This document shows positions 40,560 through 47,706 of a DNA stretch of 64,000 bases, in pieces (the first letter of the stretch is position 1; each line of letters begins with the position of its first letter). The notes under the pieces are model-generated. The model did no database searches, was not told the origin of the DNA, and worked only from the letters and a program-made list of their open reading frames with translations. Source of the stretch: Flavobacteriaceae bacterium (GTDB lineage: Bacteria > Bacteroidota > Bacteroidia > Flavobacteriales > Flavobacteriaceae). Made by a program: the position numbers and the translations under genes. The stretch spans positions 248,001-312,000 of the forward strand of contig JABABD010000040.1 of NCBI GenBank assembly GCA_014238425.1, given 5' to 3'.

Positions 40560-42740
40560 CTAAAACTTAAATGTGGCTCCAAGGAAAAAATTCGTTCCCG
40601 CTTGTGGGTAATAACCTGCCCCATCTAATGTCGTGGTTTGACCAGGTACAGACCAAGTATCATCATATGTAAAGTAATACCCATTAGAAACATACTCTGT
40701 ATTAAACAAATTATTCAATAATCCTGAAAACACAATCGATTTGAAAATGGATTTTGGTTTAACTTCATACGTGATGTTGAAATCATTTACAAAATAACTA
40801 TCTAATTTCGAAGTCTCTACATCAAAATTACTCATGTATTGCTCACCAACATACTTAGAAAGAAATACTAATTGAAGGTTTTCTATCGGAGTATATTGCA
40901 ACATGCTGCCAATAATTAAATTAGGTGAATAGGATATGTTTGTATTCCCCAAGTCTGCTATCTCACCATTTAAAGTTCGTGTGAAATTTACATTCTTATT
41001 AGCACTAATACCTATGTTAGGTCTAATCGAAAACTTATCAGACACCTTTAATTGGGCATCGATTTCCAGTCCTAATCGATAACTTTTACCACTATTAGCA
41101 CGGATAGGCGATCCCACATCATCCAAGGCACCAGTTAGCACTAACTGATTGTTATAAGCCATATAATATATATTGGCATTTAATATGGTTTTTTCAGAAC
41201 TATGTCTCCACCCTAACTCAAAATCATTAAGCTGTTCTGGTTCAGGATTGCCATTTTCATAATCAGTTCTGTTAGGTTCTCTATTAGCGCGTGCATAAGA
41301 TGCATACAAACTATTCTGTTGATTAATTTGATAATTTGCACCAACTTTTGGATTAAAGAATGTAAAATTATCATCTACTGAAAAAGTCACTAGATCAGAG
41401 TTGAGGCCACCATCAGTTGAGTAATCTATACTTCGCATTTGCAAATCTCCGTAGAGACTCCATTGATCATCTAGTTTAATTGTGGCTTTAGAGAACATAT
41501 TGAATTCCGTTTTCTTGGCTGAATTATCATAATAACGATCTCTTATTTCGCTATCACTTGCAAATTGTGCCCAAATCACCTCTCCAAAATGATCTCCTTT
41601 ATATACATTATAAGATCCGCCAAAAATGACATCTGCTTTTCGGTTCTTATAATTTAATGAAAAAGTCGTTCCATAAAAATCATTATCCAACCATCGTCTT
41701 CGTATAAGGTCAGTAGTTTCAATAGTTTCCCCACCAATGGTTATTGGTGAAAACCCATAGGTGCTAAAGTCCTCATTCTCTTTATATTGCTCAAAATATC
41801 CTCTTCCATAAGTATAATGAAATGCTACATTCGACGACCAATTATTATCATATCGCTGATTCCAGTGCAACTGGTAATGGTCTTGATTATAATTATCGAC
41901 TTCATTATCATAAAACTGTGTATTACCGTCTGCATCGGTATAAATTCCAGCAGGATTAAAAGTTCTATCTGATTCCAAAGTAGCAGCGTCGACACCAAAC
42001 CAAGACTGATATGTTCGTTCAAATCCGCCGAAAGCAATAGCCTTAATTAATGTATTATCAGCCACATAACTTCCTTGCAAAAAATAGGATTTCAACTCAG
42101 ATTCGGCGCGATCTATATAACCATCACTAGTGATTTTTGATAATCGTCCGGCAATTTCAAAATGATCATTTAGTTTTCCAGTACTGAACTTCAGCGTATT
42201 CTTAAACGTGTTAAATGACCCAATAGATGATGCTATTTCGGCATTGGCTTCATTTGAAACAGCATCTGTTAAGATATTTAAACTGGCGCCAAAAGCGCCT
42301 GACCCATTGGTAGATGTTCCAACACCTCGTTGCAATTGAAGGCTTTCTACTGACGATGCAAAATCGCCAAGATTCACCCAAAAAGTACCATGTGATTCTG
42401 AATCATTATATGGAATGCCATTGATAGTCACATTCACGCGAGTAGCGTCACTACCACGCACTCGAATACCTGTGTAACCAACACCAGCACCAGCATCCGT
42501 GGTTGTTACAACATTTGGTAAATAGTTCAATAATATTGGAATATCTTGTCCAAGATTTCTTTTTGCCAATTCTTTTTTAGTGACATTAGAAAATGTCATT
42601 GGAGTACCTTCTTTAACGCGGATAGCGTTGACTAATATTTCATCTAATTTCTGGACTTGGGTTGAGTCATTCTGCTTTTCTTGAGCATTAAGACAAAAAG
42701 AAACTAAACATAAAGCTGTTAACAGGTAAATACTTTTCAT
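40560..42740 (-). CDS. TonB-dependent receptor under TPP riboswitch control (probable thiamine-related uptake)
   Basis: The 726-residue protein has a signal peptide (CLVSFCLNAQ), a TonB box-like segment (DEILVNAIRV), a plug domain (LNYLPNVVTTTDAGAGVGYTGIRVRGSDATRVNVTINGIPYND and GVGTSTNGSGAFGASLNILT), and a 22-strand barrel ending GATFKF. It lacks the N-terminal carboxypeptidase-like domain of SusC-type receptors. A TPP riboswitch stands in its leader (42852-42933), so the substrate is most likely thiamine or a precursor. The operon immediately upstream supplies a Thiamine_BP-like protein, a PnuC/PnuT permease and a kinase, completing a possible uptake route. Confidence 0.92.
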   Translation of the reverse strand: MKSIYLLTALCLVSFCLNAQEKQNDSTQVQKLDEILVNAIRVKEGTPMTFSNVTKKELAKRNLGQDIPILLNYLPNVVTTTDAGAGVGYTGIRVRGSDATRVNVTINGIPYNDSESHGTFWVNLGDFASSVESLQLQRGVGTSTNGSGAFGASLNILTDAVSNEANAEIASSIGSFNTFKNTLKFSTGKLNDHFEIAGRLSKITSDGYIDRAESELKSYFLQGSYVADNTLIKAIAFGGFERTYQSWFGVDAATLESDRTFNPAGIYTDADGNTQFYDNEVDNYNQDHYQLHWNQRYDNNWSSNVAFHYTYGRGYFEQYKENEDFSTYGFSPITIGGETIETTDLIRRRWLDNDFYGTTFSLNYKNRKADVIFGGSYNVYKGDHFGEVIWAQFASDSEIRDRYYDNSAKKTEFNMFSKATIKLDDQWSLYGDLQMRSIDYSTDGGLNSDLVTFSVDDNFTFFNPKVGANYQINQQNSLYASYARANREPNRTDYENGNPEPEQLNDFELGWRHSSEKTILNANIYYMAYNNQLVLTGALDDVGSPIRANSGKSYRLGLEIDAQLKVSDKFSIRPNIGISANKNVNFTRTLNGEIADLGNTNISYSPNLIIGSMLQYTPIENLQLVFLSKYVGEQYMSNFDVETSKLDSYFVNDFNITYEVKPKSIFKSIVFSGLLNNLFNTEYVSNGYYFTYDDTWSVPGQTTTLDGAGYYPQAGTNFFLGATFKF

Positions 42741-42851
42741 TCGAAACTATCATTAATACGAATAAAAAGGGGTAGTTATTCTTGTTTTTAATTGATTTAT
42801 TAAACACCACAAGAAATTCTTCGAGCTTGTCGAAATAAATACATTTGTTGT

Positions 42852-42933
42852 GTTCGTTTCCCTAAACAGCATTACCTGTTCTAGGTTCTATGGGTATGAT
42901 CTCAGCCGCATGTCGGCACCCCTAATGAGAACG
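42852..42933 (-). ncRNA. TPP riboswitch (THI element)
   Basis: On the minus strand the conserved pieces appear in order: AGGGGTGCC, GCTGAGATCATACCC, ATAGAACCT, and GGTAATGCTGTTTAGGGAA, bounded by a GTTC/GAAC closing stem. These match the thi-box consensus (GGGGUGC, CUGAGA, ACCC, GAACCUG, GGUAAUGC). It lies 112 nt upstream of the TonB receptor ATG. A hairpin TTCGACAAGCTCGAA (plus 42821-42835) lies between aptamer and gene and may belong to the expression platform. TPP binding would repress receptor expression. Confidence 0.9.
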
Positions 42934-42984
42934 ATACAAAGATAAATATCAATTATGAATTATGGACAATGAATTCCAAAATTT

Positions 42985-43392
42985 TTATTCCAGATCTGGT
43001 TTTTTCCTAGACACCTTCTTATCAGATAGTTGCTTCTTCTTTTTGAGACGCTTTAGCTTCACTGCCTTAGACATTCTAGTTGGCTTACGCATTTTGGGAA
43101 CTATTAAGCCTCTATTCAATATATCTAATAAACGCCTCACTACCAATTCCTTGTTTTTATGTTGACTTCTTGTATCGCCGCATTGAAGGATAATAACATT
43201 ATTCTTTGTGAGTCTTTCAGAAATGGTCTTGAGTAGTAATTCTTTGTGTTCTGTTGTTAATAGAACTGATTCCATAAGATGAAATCTCAACTCTATTTTT
43301 GTGGACACTTTATTAACATGTTGTCCTCCACTGCCTGAACTTCTTATGGCCTTGAATTTCAATTCTGGCAGTATCTCTTCAACGGTAATCAT
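42985..43392 (-). CDS. arfB: Peptidyl-tRNA hydrolase ArfB-like (class I release factor domain)
   Basis: The 135-residue protein contains the GGQ-loop domain of release factors (FKAIRSSGSGGQHVNKVSTKIELRF) and a basic C-terminal tail (MRKPTRMSKAVKLKRLKKKKQ, then KVSRKKPDLE). It lacks the codon-recognition domain, so it would rescue stalled ribosomes like ArfB (YaeJ). It starts on the stop of the DUF4301 gene (1-base overlap) and is the last gene of the overlapping operon upstream of the TPP riboswitch. Confidence 0.92.
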   Translation of the reverse strand: MITVEEILPELKFKAIRSSGSGGQHVNKVSTKIELRFHLMESVLLTTEHKELLLKTISERLTKNNVIILQCGDTRSQHKNKELVVRRLLDILNRGLIVPKMRKPTRMSKAVKLKRLKKKKQLSDKKVSRKKPDLE

Positions 43393-44948
43393 TAACTAAC
43401 AACTTGGTGAGGTTCTTTGAGTAAATCGTTCACTGTTTTAACAGGATTAAAAGTTAGCAAAGGTACTTCAACAAAAATGGTGTTCCAATTAGCCATACTA
43501 CCATTCCAAAGACCTGGCAATTCTAATGCTTTTATGTCTTTACCAACCTTGGTTTTCATAGTTATAAAAGCCGTCTTGTGATCCACATACTTTGTTAGAT
43601 CAAACTTAATTCCTTTATAATCTTTAACACCACAAACTAAATCTACTGGATTAAAATGTGTGGATTTCTTTAAAATCTGTTTTTGATGTTTGTTCTTTTT
43701 ATCAATCTGTGCGGACTCGACAATTTGAAGAGATATATTGGCACTTTCGTCTTTCACCCAAAAAGGACCTCCTCCAGGCTCTCCTTCATTTTTTACCATA
43801 CCACATACTCTTATTGGGCGGTTTAATTTATCAAACAAATACTGTTTTTGATATTTCTTGCTGTATTTCTCAAATTCAGTACTGATTACTAAATTGAGTT
43901 TATTAGATAAAAATTGAGCAATCGTCATTAATCGTTCTTCTGAAGGGTCAGTTGACTCCAGTTCTCTTAGATACATAAACGCTACCTCTTGCTCTTTCAA
44001 TAATTTACCTGCTAACATTTTCTTACTAGCAGATACTTCGCTTTCATATTTAAAAACTACCACATTATCAATATTCTTGATAAAAATAATGTCCGCATCA
44101 AGATCATTGAGATTCTCAATTAAAGCACCATGGCCAGAAGGCCTGAACAGTAAACCGCCATTATCTTCAACATATGGTTTATTATCTGTAGTTAACGCAA
44201 TAGTATCTGTGGATTCTTTTTGATAAGAGAAACAGATATTAAAACTAGTATTGGTCTTTTTTTCTACAATTTCTTCGATTCTCTTGAACTCTTCATCAAA
44301 GATATTCTTATGTTTTTCAGATATTGTAAAATGCAAATCTGCTTTCCCATTAGAAGATGCATATAAGGCTGCTTCAAAAAGATGTTCTTCAAAAGCCGTC
44401 GCTACATGATCCCTATACTGGTGAAATGGAAGTAACCCTTTAGGGTAATTTCCATAATTAAGGCTGTTTTCACCTAGCATCATTTCTACAAACAAAAACA
44501 GCTGTTCATTAAGCTTAAGTTTACTAAAGTTTTTATTCTTTTTGTGTAACTGTTGTTTTACTTTGTAATAGAAGGGAAGTTTATTTATTCCAACAAAAAA
44601 GATGGATAGCTCTGATGCCTTTTTTCTGTTGATATAAGAATTTATGCTTTCATTATTGGGTTTATAATCTTCAAAAAATTTAAACAGAAACTTGAACATT
44701 CTAGTTGCTGCACCTGACGCTGGAACAAATTTCAGGATTGAAATATCTGCTCGTTTAGAGTCATAACTTTTAATAAGGTCCTCTTTATCATTATCATCTA
44801 TTTGCAAAATACCATGATTAGGCACAGCAGCAGCATTTAGATTGATAAATGGTAATCCTTGCTTAAAAAGATTGATTTGACTCTCTACTTTACTTAAGGT
44901 TAAACCCTTTTTGTTTATTTGTTCAAGCTGTTCCTTCGTAAACTTCAA
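43392..44948 (-). CDS. DUF4301 family protein
   Basis: The 518-residue protein matches the DUF4301 pattern, with VPASGAATRMFKFLFKFFEDYKP, DIIFIKNIDNVVV, SGHGALIENLNDL and GMVKNEGEPGGGPFWVKD. The GxGxx-type segments and uridylyltransferase-like blocks (LLFRPSGHGALI) suggest a nucleotidyltransferase-like fold, but no activity is established. It overlaps the kinase gene by 4 nt on one side and arfB by 1 nt on the other. Confidence 0.85.
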   Translation of the reverse strand: MKFTKEQLEQINKKGLTLSKVESQINLFKQGLPFINLNAAAVPNHGILQIDDNDKEDLIKSYDSKRADISILKFVPASGAATRMFKFLFKFFEDYKPNNESINSYINRKKASELSIFFVGINKLPFYYKVKQQLHKKNKNFSKLKLNEQLFLFVEMMLGENSLNYGNYPKGLLPFHQYRDHVATAFEEHLFEAALYASSNGKADLHFTISEKHKNIFDEEFKRIEEIVEKKTNTSFNICFSYQKESTDTIALTTDNKPYVEDNGGLLFRPSGHGALIENLNDLDADIIFIKNIDNVVVFKYESEVSASKKMLAGKLLKEQEVAFMYLRELESTDPSEERLMTIAQFLSNKLNLVISTEFEKYSKKYQKQYLFDKLNRPIRVCGMVKNEGEPGGGPFWVKDESANISLQIVESAQIDKKNKHQKQILKKSTHFNPVDLVCGVKDYKGIKFDLTKYVDHKTAFITMKTKVGKDIKALELPGLWNGSMANWNTIFVEVPLLTFNPVKTVNDLLKEPHQVVS

Positions 44949-45514
44949 TACTGTTTTTTTAAAATTTTATCTATATGGGCTATGGCATCGTTTAATCGAT
45001 CATGCTTATCACCTTTTAGTATCACATATGGTTTTTTGTTGACTATTAACGCCTCTTCAAAAGCTCTGAACATATGTTCTCTTTCCTCTGGCTTATCTCT
45101 TAAATCATCAGCTTCCCATGGTGTATCAATATACGTCAAAAAATAAAGATCATATCTATTCTCTAGAGCGTATTTTTCTAGTATCGAATCACAGATTCCA
45201 GAATAATAGGCTTCAGAATACACTTTCGTTTCTAGTAAATCTGTATCACAGATAAGAACGGTATTAGTTTTTTGAGCCAATTCATTCTCCGAACGCATCT
45301 GCCCAATCGCAATAGGCAATAAGTCTTTTGGTTCGCAAGTTTTGCGTTCATTATTCCATTTATTCTGTAAGTATTCGCGTGCATATTCAGGCACCCAAAC
45401 AGAATTGTAATGTCTGGCTAATTGCTTAGATAAGGTTGTTTTTCCAGTAGATTCTGGACCAAATAAAACGACTCTTATGCAGGCTGCAGGCTGCTGTTTA
45501 AGTGTTTCTTCCAT
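44945..45514 (-). CDS. NadR-like P-loop kinase (candidate thiamine or nicotinamide riboside kinase)
   Basis: The 189-residue protein is a single P-loop domain: Walker A VVLFGPESTGKTTLSKQLARHYN, then VPEYAREYLQNKW, TVLICDTDLLETKVYSE and a lid region with KPEEREHMFRAFEEAL. This is the NadR C-terminal ribosylnicotinamide kinase type (AAA_28). It overlaps the PnuC-family permease gene by 40 nt, so the two work together. In the context of a Thiamine_BP-like gene and a nearby TPP riboswitch, thiamine is a plausible substrate; nicotinamide riboside is the standard alternative. Confidence 0.8.
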   Translation of the reverse strand: MEETLKQQPAACIRVVLFGPESTGKTTLSKQLARHYNSVWVPEYAREYLQNKWNNERKTCEPKDLLPIAIGQMRSENELAQKTNTVLICDTDLLETKVYSEAYYSGICDSILEKYALENRYDLYFLTYIDTPWEADDLRDKPEEREHMFRAFEEALIVNKKPYVILKGDKHDRLNDAIAHIDKILKKQY

Positions 45515-46107
45515 TCTAGAAAACCAAAGATGGCTATTATAGTTAAAATAAAATATAGTATGCTACTAAATGTAAGTCCTTTGTAAAAATAAAGCGGAAC
45601 TGTAATAATGTCTCCAATAATCCAATAAATCCAATTTTCAATCTTTCTTTTAGCCATTAACCACATCCCCACAAAAAAGATTCCAGTAGTTAAAGTATCT
45701 ACATATGCGGTCCAGTTATTGAATTTATCAAAAACAGTATAAACTCCCCAAACAAAAACAACCGCCGCTAAAAAGATTACACACGAAACTTGCTTCTCTC
45801 TTTTATTTGTTCTTGATATTGGTGTTACATGAGTCTCATCAATTTTTTTAGTCCAAATCCACCACCCATAAATACTCATTATAAAATAATAAGCGTTAAT
45901 CATCATGTCTCCTAAAAGTCCCCATTTTAAAAGTAAATAGACAAAAATCGCTGTACAAATCATTCCTGTTGGAAAGACCAATACATTATTTTTCTTAGAA
46001 TACCATACTGAAGCAATAGTGAACACAGCAGCTATCAATTCCAACACAATATCTAAGGTATCATAATCGGTATATTGTCCAAACAAAAAATCAAAAACCT
46101 GATTCAT
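45475..46107 (-). CDS. PnuC-family vitamin transporter (PnuT-like candidate)
   Basis: The 210-residue protein has seven membrane helices and PnuC-type stretches (SVWYSKKNNVLVFPTGMICTAIFVYLLLKWGLLGDMMINAYYFIMSIYGWWIWTKK and MAKRKIENWIYWIIGDIITVPLYFYKGL). The family moves uncharged vitamin forms by facilitated diffusion with trapping by a kinase; PnuC takes nicotinamide riboside and PnuT takes thiamine. Neighbours (Thiamine_BP-like protein overlapping by 17 nt and kinase overlapping by 40 nt) and the riboswitch-controlled receptor favour PnuT. Sequence alone cannot settle the substrate. Confidence 0.88.
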   Translation of the reverse strand: MNQVFDFLFGQYTDYDTLDIVLELIAAVFTIASVWYSKKNNVLVFPTGMICTAIFVYLLLKWGLLGDMMINAYYFIMSIYGWWIWTKKIDETHVTPISRTNKREKQVSCVIFLAAVVFVWGVYTVFDKFNNWTAYVDTLTTGIFFVGMWLMAKRKIENWIYWIIGDIITVPLYFYKGLTFSSILYFILTIIAIFGFLEWKKHLNSSLQPA

Positions 46108-46351
46108 AGTTGCTTCTATCTGTTTTTATAACTTTCATTGTCAATACTGAGATATTTTGTTCTTCGAACGACTCTTTTATAACTTTCGTTAAGAATGGCA
46201 TTAACTGGTCATATTCTCCATATATCTGGGTGCTTAAAGGATTTTCTAGTAACGTAAATCCTGAATTTCGCAACGTTTTTATAAAAGCAATAATGTGCTT
46301 TTCATAATCATCCTGTAGTGGTGACAAAGTAAGATCAACTGAAATTTTCAT
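46091..46351 (-). CDS. Thiamine-binding (Thiamine_BP/YkoF/MTH1187-like) protein
   Basis: The 86-residue protein fits the PF01910 pattern: MKISVDLTLSPLQDDYEKHIIAFIKTLR, then GFTLLENPLSTQIYGEYDQLMPFLTKVI and a final strand ISVLTMKVIKT. Members form tetramers or dimers and bind the thiamine pyrimidine (YkoF). No signal peptide is seen. It overlaps the start of the PnuC/PnuT gene by 17 nt and lies 6 nt from the GGGPS gene. It supports a thiamine role for the operon. Confidence 0.82.
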   Translation of the reverse strand: MKISVDLTLSPLQDDYEKHIIAFIKTLRNSGFTLLENPLSTQIYGEYDQLMPFLTKVIKESFEEQNISVLTMKVIKTDRSNYESGF

Positions 46352-46357
46352 AGCTAC

Positions 46358-47083
46358 TTATTTCTTTAATAGTAAAAAGAATGATTCGTTTTCTTCAAAA
46401 GCGGTTCCAATAACAATCATATCTGCACCAGCTTGATAAGCCTCAGATAATTGCCTAGGTGATTTAATACCTCCTCCTACAATTAACGGAATATTAATAA
46501 CTTGTCTCACTTCGGAGATTATCTCAACATTAACTGGGTTTGTGGCACCACTTCCAGCTTCTAGGTACATTAATTTTTGTCCTAATAATTGTCCTGCATA
46601 AGCTGTATTTACAATCTTTTGAATGTCATTACGAGGCATCGGTTGCGTTTGAGTAACACGTTGTACTGATGTTTCTTTTCCATTTTCAATGAGAACATAA
46701 CCTGTTGGAATAACTTCCAATTCTGAATCCTTCAGAATTGATGCTGCTTGTATATGTTTATCTATTAAATAATCTGGATTACGTCCAGAAATAAGGGATA
46801 AAAACAATAAGGCATCGGCACTATTTGTTATTTGAGTGACATCACCTGGAAACAAAATAATTGGAAGTGTTGTCATTTTTTTAAGAGCTCTAACTAGTAT
46901 ATGAGTTATATCTCGATTAACTTCACTTCCACCCACAAAAATATGTGTCGCAATGGACTTATTAAGCTTGCCCATAAAACCAGAAAGAACATCCAACTTC
47001 ATCTTATCTGGATCAATTAGAACGGCCAGCAATTTTTCTTGACTCTTGATTGATGTTAATATGTTATTGTAAATCGTACTCAT
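46358..47083 (-). CDS. Geranylgeranylglyceryl/heptaprenylglyceryl phosphate synthase (PcrB/GGGPS family)
   Basis: The ATG at 47083 overlaps the preceding stop (TAATG); an upstream TTG-type extension of 7 residues is discarded. The 241-residue TIM barrel has LLAVLIDPDK, HIFVGGSEVN, IILFPGDVTQI, the phosphate-binding stretch YLEAGSGATNPVN and IPLIVGGGIKSPRQLSEAYQAGADMIVIGTAFEE. It makes the ether bond between glycerol 1-phosphate and a polyprenyl diphosphate. Bacteroidota carry bacterial group II GGGPS of unclear product. The glycerol-1-phosphate source is not in this window. Confidence 0.9.
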   Translation of the reverse strand: MSTIYNNILTSIKSQEKLLAVLIDPDKMKLDVLSGFMGKLNKSIATHIFVGGSEVNRDITHILVRALKKMTTLPIILFPGDVTQITNSADALLFLSLISGRNPDYLIDKHIQAASILKDSELEVIPTGYVLIENGKETSVQRVTQTQPMPRNDIQKIVNTAYAGQLLGQKLMYLEAGSGATNPVNVEIISEVRQVINIPLIVGGGIKSPRQLSEAYQAGADMIVIGTAFEENESFFLLLKK

Positions 47084-47706
47084 TAAGATACTACATAAGC
47101 ACAAGTGAATCCTTCAAATTCTAAGAAACTGACATCGTATCTTAACTTAATCTTTTTATAATCAATCCAAGCATTTGTAAATTCGTCCTCAAGCATAAAT
47201 GGGATAACCAATGTATTCATTTTAAAACTCAACCCTGGTGTTGCAAACAACTTAAATAACGATTCCTTTATACACCAAATTACTGTTAGTTTTTTAGTGA
47301 GATCCGAATCTTCTTTCAAGTATTGAGATTCATAACCTATAAATTTAGGCGAAACAATCTTAATCTTATCTCGTTGCTTTTCAATATCAATCCCAACAAC
47401 TAAATCAGAAACAATAACCGCTGAAAAGCTAAATGAATGTGTAATAGAAATTTGTTTCCCATCTTTTAAATGAGGTTTCCCATTTTCGTCATAATATAAG
47501 TCGACATCCGTATACCCAAATTCACGAAGCAAATGCCGAACGCTTAAAAATCCTAATTGGTGAATAGATGATTTCATATCATCTACTCGAGCTCGACTCT
47601 CAGGTTTTAATTCTAGAGGTTTGACTAAGTCATCATAAGATTCATCAATCCTCCATATCTTAACACTAGTTTGTGAATTTACAGCAATGGATTTGTATAA
47701 TGGCAT
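47083..47706 (-). CDS. 4'-phosphopantetheinyl transferase superfamily protein
   Basis: The 207-residue protein has the Sfp-type motifs: the Mg-binding [11 protein letters not shown], the W-x2-K-E-S-x-x-K block [14 protein letters not shown], and the N-terminal Sfp-like pseudo-repeat with [27 protein letters not shown]. It moves phosphopantetheine from CoA to a carrier protein serine. As Sfp-type it may activate polyketide or unusual carrier proteins. It opens the seven-gene operon and is divergent from ahcY with 64 nt between starts. Confidence 0.92.

Follow-up and report, generated by a model that had tools for sequence, protein, structure and literature searches.

A set of three mutually overlapping genes in the genome of a Flavobacteriaceae bacterium encodes a Thiamine_BP-like protein, a PnuC-family permease and a NadR-like kinase. 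Permease and kinase of these families are usually assigned to nicotinamide riboside (NR), whereas the Thiamine_BP-like gene and a nearby riboswitch-linked receptor, as noted in a preliminary description of the locus, point to thiamine. The question is which vitamin is salvaged, and whether the kinase may provide the first phosphorylation of imported thiamine, a step for which these bacteria have no known enzyme. The locus was analyzed within a stretch of 64,000 nucleotides, referred to as the window, and compared with related genomes, indicated below by a G followed by a number.

Organization of the locus

The three genes lie on the minus strand: the Thiamine_BP-like gene at 46351-46091 (86 aa), the PnuC-family gene at 46107-45475 (210 aa) and the kinase gene at 45514-44945 (189 aa), with overlaps of exactly 17 and 40 nt. 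The overlaps make translational coupling plausible, although the obligate co-translation proposed in the preliminary description is not shown. Searches against Pfam assigned the three products to PF01910 (Thiamine_BP, 27.0 bits, only just above the cut-off of 24.9), PF04973 (NMN_transporter, 177.6 bits) and PF13521 (AAA_28, 150.9 bits). NCBIfam models gave an above-cutoff TIGR01528 PnuC match for the permease, and only sub-cutoff NadR matches for the kinase, the NadR equivalog models being far below cut-off.

The Thiamine_BP match, taken alone, is weak, but a profile built on 14 homologues matches UPF0045 and YkoF structures, including those of MJ1052 and SP2199. The protein shows no obvious signal peptide. 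In contrast to YkoF and UPF0045 proteins, it is linked to PnuC instead of an ABC/ECF transporter. The permease, the only PnuC of the genome, matches by profile the PnuC structure 4qtn.

The three genes are part of a longer minus strand string of seven, with overlaps or gaps of a few bases, composed of a 4'-phosphopantetheinyl transferase (PPTase) gene (47083-47706; PF01648, 38 bits), a gene of the PcrB / geranylgeranylglyceryl-phosphate synthase family (46358-47083; NF003198, 278 bits), the three genes described above, a DUF4301 gene (43392-44948; PF14134, 720 bits) and a gene for an ArfB-type peptidyl-tRNA hydrolase (42985-43392; NF006718, 126 bits), the latter being a neighbour that is probably unrelated. 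The string is followed, on the same strand, by a TPP riboswitch at 42933-42842 and, about 100 nt later, by the gene for a TonB-dependent outer-membrane receptor at 42740-40560 (PF00593 and PF07715), inferred to be a thiamine receptor of the OMthi/Omr1 type. The riboswitch was not found by Rfam at the gathering threshold, its score for RF00059 (50.7 bits, E 4.8e-8) being just below the curated 54.3. No second riboswitch was found between 42500 and 48000, so that in this genome the uptake genes are not themselves riboswitch-headed.

Conservation and linkage to TPP riboswitches

The seven-gene order recurs in relatives, and is therefore not a chance arrangement. The order PnuC > kinase, often preceded by Thiamine_BP and followed by TPP riboswitch > receptor, was found in Winogradskyella, Algibacter, Eudoraea, Dokdonia and Flavobacterium; in Hymenobacter the order is the same without Thiamine_BP, and in Pontibacter kinase, TPP riboswitch and receptor follow each other. 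DUF4301 and ArfB lie in between in many members of the family of the window genome, whereas in G006, G018 and G022 the kinase gene ends right before the riboswitch. The split layout, with the uptake genes upstream and the receptor under its own riboswitch, is common in Bacteroidota, rather than distinctive as initially described.

In order to evaluate the link systematically, TPP riboswitches were located in 78 kinase-bearing genomes of the class and compared with the kinase coordinates. In 35 genomes, from 17 families, a TPP riboswitch lies within 10 kb downstream of the kinase, always on the same strand and most often 24-200 nt after it, whereas a riboswitch placed at random in a 4-Mb genome is estimated to do so in well under 1% of genomes. 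In the other 43 genomes the kinase is not within 10 kb of a TPP riboswitch. All 20 of the linked loci that were mapped have a receptor homologue behind the riboswitch. In two genomes a TPP riboswitch heads the uptake operon itself: the order is TPP riboswitch > Thiamine_BP > PnuC > kinase > TPP riboswitch > receptor in G248, and TPP riboswitch > PnuC > kinase > TPP riboswitch > receptor in G149. The opposite expectation, that orthologous loci lack riboswitch-controlled receptors and follow NAD genes, was tested in part, without a survey of the NAD genes of the genome, and was not fulfilled.

Distribution of thiamine salvage enzymes

The window genome (94.6% complete) contains ThiL (TIGR01379, 318.7 bits), but no thiamine pyrophosphokinase (TPK, PF04263) above threshold, no ThiC, and no ThiK (TIGR02721) above cut-off. 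Imported thiamine therefore needs a first kinase. Among 26 near relatives searched, ThiL was found in all, 25 over cut-off and the last as a partial match, while TPK was found in only four (G004, G005, G017 and G019). Three of these four lack the PnuC-linked kinase, and G005 has both.

The same comparison was extended to 296 genomes of the class. TPK was found in 63, a strong kinase match (E < 1e-20) in 175, and both in only 6. Two of the six were discarded, since G221 carries a full NadR, with both NMNAT and kinase domains, and G305 branches with the NadRs; the remaining 4 are all in one genus, g25, in which kinase and TPK co-occur in 4 of 5 genomes. The resulting distribution (4 both, 169 kinase only, 59 TPK only, 64 neither) gives a Fisher p-value of 1.3e-22. 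As relatedness inflates this value, the test was repeated after collapsing genomes to families (2 both, 30 kinase only, 17 TPK only, 22 neither, for a total of about 71 family labels), obtaining a fairer p-value of 4e-4. The kinase profile also catches NadR, and some of the 169 genomes may hold only a full NadR.

The two enzymes are also interchangeable in place. In two genomes of the family labelled f38 the order is TPP riboswitch > receptor > PnuC > TPK, matching the published Bacteroides OMthi, pnuT and tnr3 genes (PMC5613172). In G004, of the same family as the window genome, PPTase-pcrB and TPP riboswitch > receptor remain, but Thiamine_BP, pnuC and kinase are gone from the locus, where an unrelated 220-aa reading frame is found, and TPK is present elsewhere in the genome.

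Relationship of the kinase to NadR

The 189-aa kinase is entirely composed of the kinase domain and lacks the N-terminal NMNAT domain of NadR. In a maximum-likelihood tree, 72 standalone Bacteroidota kinases, including all 42 TPP-linked ones, fall in one group (support 89/89, a rough value, as the bootstrap had not fully settled), with all 8 NMNAT-bearing proteins outside. Full-length NadR sits beside a different PnuC, at separate loci without a TPP riboswitch, in G003, G158, G038, G201, G221 and a Chitinophagaceae MAG; G003, G158, G038 and G201 carry the window-type kinase as well. A second AAA_28 protein of the window genome, encoded beside recQ/fmt/DUF493, belongs to a distant, separate clade with an unrelated neighbourhood.

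The predicted structure of the kinase (pLDDT 92.5) matches NadR best (8x7f, TM 0.83; 1lw7, 0.75), followed by thymidylate kinases. The P-loop and the DxPWxxDxxR motif are shared with NadR, from which fold and chemistry are inferred to be those of a monophosphate-transferring P-loop kinase. Specificity-determining residues were sought for both kinase and PnuC, without finding a decisive signature, and no residue clearly separates the kinase from the NR-kinase domain of NadR, its closest relative of known function.

The neighbouring DUF4301 protein (predicted structure, pLDDT 90.8) matched, by Foldseek, only UDP-glucose and UDP-GlcNAc pyrophosphorylases (34 of 34 hits below E 1e-3). It is fused in frame to the kinase in some Flavobacteriaceae, as shown for G082 by Pfam and by translation, with single open frames also in G008, G005 and Flavobacterium orientale. 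As it occurs in only 63 of the 296 genomes, with and without the kinase, it is not required for the function of the latter; the fusion is not explained by thiamine phosphorylation.

Proposed function

Taken together, these results support the interpretation of the locus as a thiamine salvage system, as suggested in the preliminary description. In the model that best accounts for the data, thiamine enters through the riboswitch-controlled receptor and the inferred PnuT-type permease, the NadR-like kinase very probably converts it to thiamine monophosphate (ThMP), which traps it in the cell, and ThiL, encoded elsewhere in the genome, makes TPP, which shuts off the receptor through the riboswitch. 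The substrate of permease and kinase, and ThMP rather than TPP as the product, are inferred from genomics and not from biochemistry; the role of PnuT as a thiamine carrier rests on published work on Bacteroides (PMC5613172). The small Thiamine_BP protein probably binds thiamine or a precursor in the cytoplasm.

Among the alternatives, all unlikely, the least so is NR salvage, with PnuC importing NR, the kinase making NMN and the thiamine receptor being an unrelated neighbour. It is favoured by the family names, by the above-cutoff TIGR01528 match and by the similarity of the kinase to NadR in sequence and fold, but TPP riboswitches head the same operon in G248 and G149, bona fide NadR-PnuC loci exist separately in relatives, and the kinase lacks the NMNAT domain and nearly excludes TPK. 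It is also improbable that the kinase acts on an imported thiamine precursor, HMP or hydroxyethylthiazole, feeding ThiE rather than ThiL directly, as in HMP salvage by YkoEDC/ThiXYZ systems. Relatives of Thiamine_BP do include precursor-transport partners, and imported HMP would be useful to a genome lacking ThiC; however, the complementarity is with TPK, which acts on thiamine itself, the receptor-PnuC pair is followed by TPK in other genomes, and Bacteroides PnuT transports thiamine. Equally doubtful is a kinase making TPP in one step, as a direct functional analogue of TPK. The kinase does take the place of TPK in the operon and in distribution, but NadR-type kinases transfer one phosphate, and ThiL is kept in all 26 relatives, including the 20 without ThiC. 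Finally, a kinase/nucleotidyltransferase pair formed with DUF4301 for some other compound, as in NadR or fucokinase/pyrophosphorylase, with an incidental position beside thiamine genes, is suggested by the fusions and by the predicted fold of DUF4301, but is very unlikely, as DUF4301 is also present in TPK genomes without the kinase and most TPP-linked kinases have no DUF4301 beside them. As a remote possibility, a NadR-derived family could be the standard thiamine kinase of most Bacteroidota and, where fused to DUF4301, the pair could make a nucleotidylated thiamine, for example adenosine thiamine diphosphate, in formal parallel to NadR making NAD from NR.

The closest known system is the OMthi-PnuT-tnr3 thiamine salvage of Bacteroides (B. 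thetaiotaomicron BT2390, BT2396-BT2397; PMC5613172), which also features a TonB receptor controlled by a TPP riboswitch, a PnuC-family permease and a salvage-enzyme gene behind the permease. Tnr3, however, is a TPK-type enzyme, while here the third gene encodes an unrelated NadR-like P-loop kinase, with ThiL needed to finish TPP, and Thiamine_BP is added. The inferred reaction, thiamine to ThMP followed by ThiL, is that of the ThiK (YcfN) thiamine kinase of E. coli, which belongs to an unrelated protein family. Receptor and PnuT for thiamine are already known, while the kinase assignment appears to be new: no NadR-like thiamine kinase was found in the literature searched, although prior mention in work on PnuT or on B1 uptake by marine Flavobacteria cannot be excluded.

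Pathway reconstructions list ThiK, ThiM and ThiN as the signature thiamine salvage enzymes (PMC6593275). A large part of Bacteroidota has the receptor, the permease and ThiL, but no detectable TPK, so that these bacteria look unable to use the thiamine they import. A NadR-like thiamine kinase would fill this gap, correct many "nicotinamide riboside" annotations, change auxotrophy predictions for flavobacteria, such as the window genome, which lacks ThiC, and give a clean case of two unrelated kinases replacing each other in one kind of operon.

TPP riboswitch elements

In the leader of the window receptor gene (42738-42935, minus strand), the sequence downstream of the TPP aptamer holds ACCCC followed by a U-run, complementary to the GGGGU of the aptamer. 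The two are paired in the predicted fold, but not significantly (z -1.0), and the region may represent an expression platform. On contig C40 of the same genome (locus L122:6066-6215, plus strand), a TPP aptamer (51.2 bits) is followed by a strong 12-bp terminator hairpin plus U-run (fold z -3.9), with no gene right after it on that strand, the next gene being convergent. The same element is conserved in two genomes of the genus and, beside other genes, in genome G015 (further loci L009, L012 and L031); it is a candidate standalone TPP riboswitch or 3'-UTR regulatory RNA.

Related kinase and permease genes

The DUF4301 gene of the window (43392-44948, minus strand) encodes a divergent protein of unknown function, with a predicted UDP-sugar-pyrophosphorylase fold, which is fused in frame to the NadR-like kinase in some Flavobacteriaceae (loci L147, L132, L129 and L178). 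A second AAA_28 kinase family (type B), also of unknown function, is represented on contig C29 of the window genome (L121:5764-6378, minus strand). Its genes lie beside recQ/fmt and a DUF493-like gene in at least two genomes, and the family, found across Flavobacteriales, forms a distant clade from NadR. An adjacent PnuC-kinase pair is also carried by Sphingomonas contigs (L197-L199); this pair branches outside the Bacteroidota clade, and no TPP riboswitch was found nearby.

In one locus (L126:5812-9426, minus strand), a TonB receptor is followed by PnuC and by a full-length NadR, without a TPP riboswitch; this is a likely nicotinamide riboside uptake locus, with its own outer-membrane receptor. 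In genomes G009 and G013 (L134:5688-7435 and L139:735-2492, both on the minus strand), a TPP riboswitch is followed by a second PnuC-family permease and by an acyl-CoA-dehydrogenase-like gene, an order possibly reflecting uptake and processing of another thiamine-related compound.
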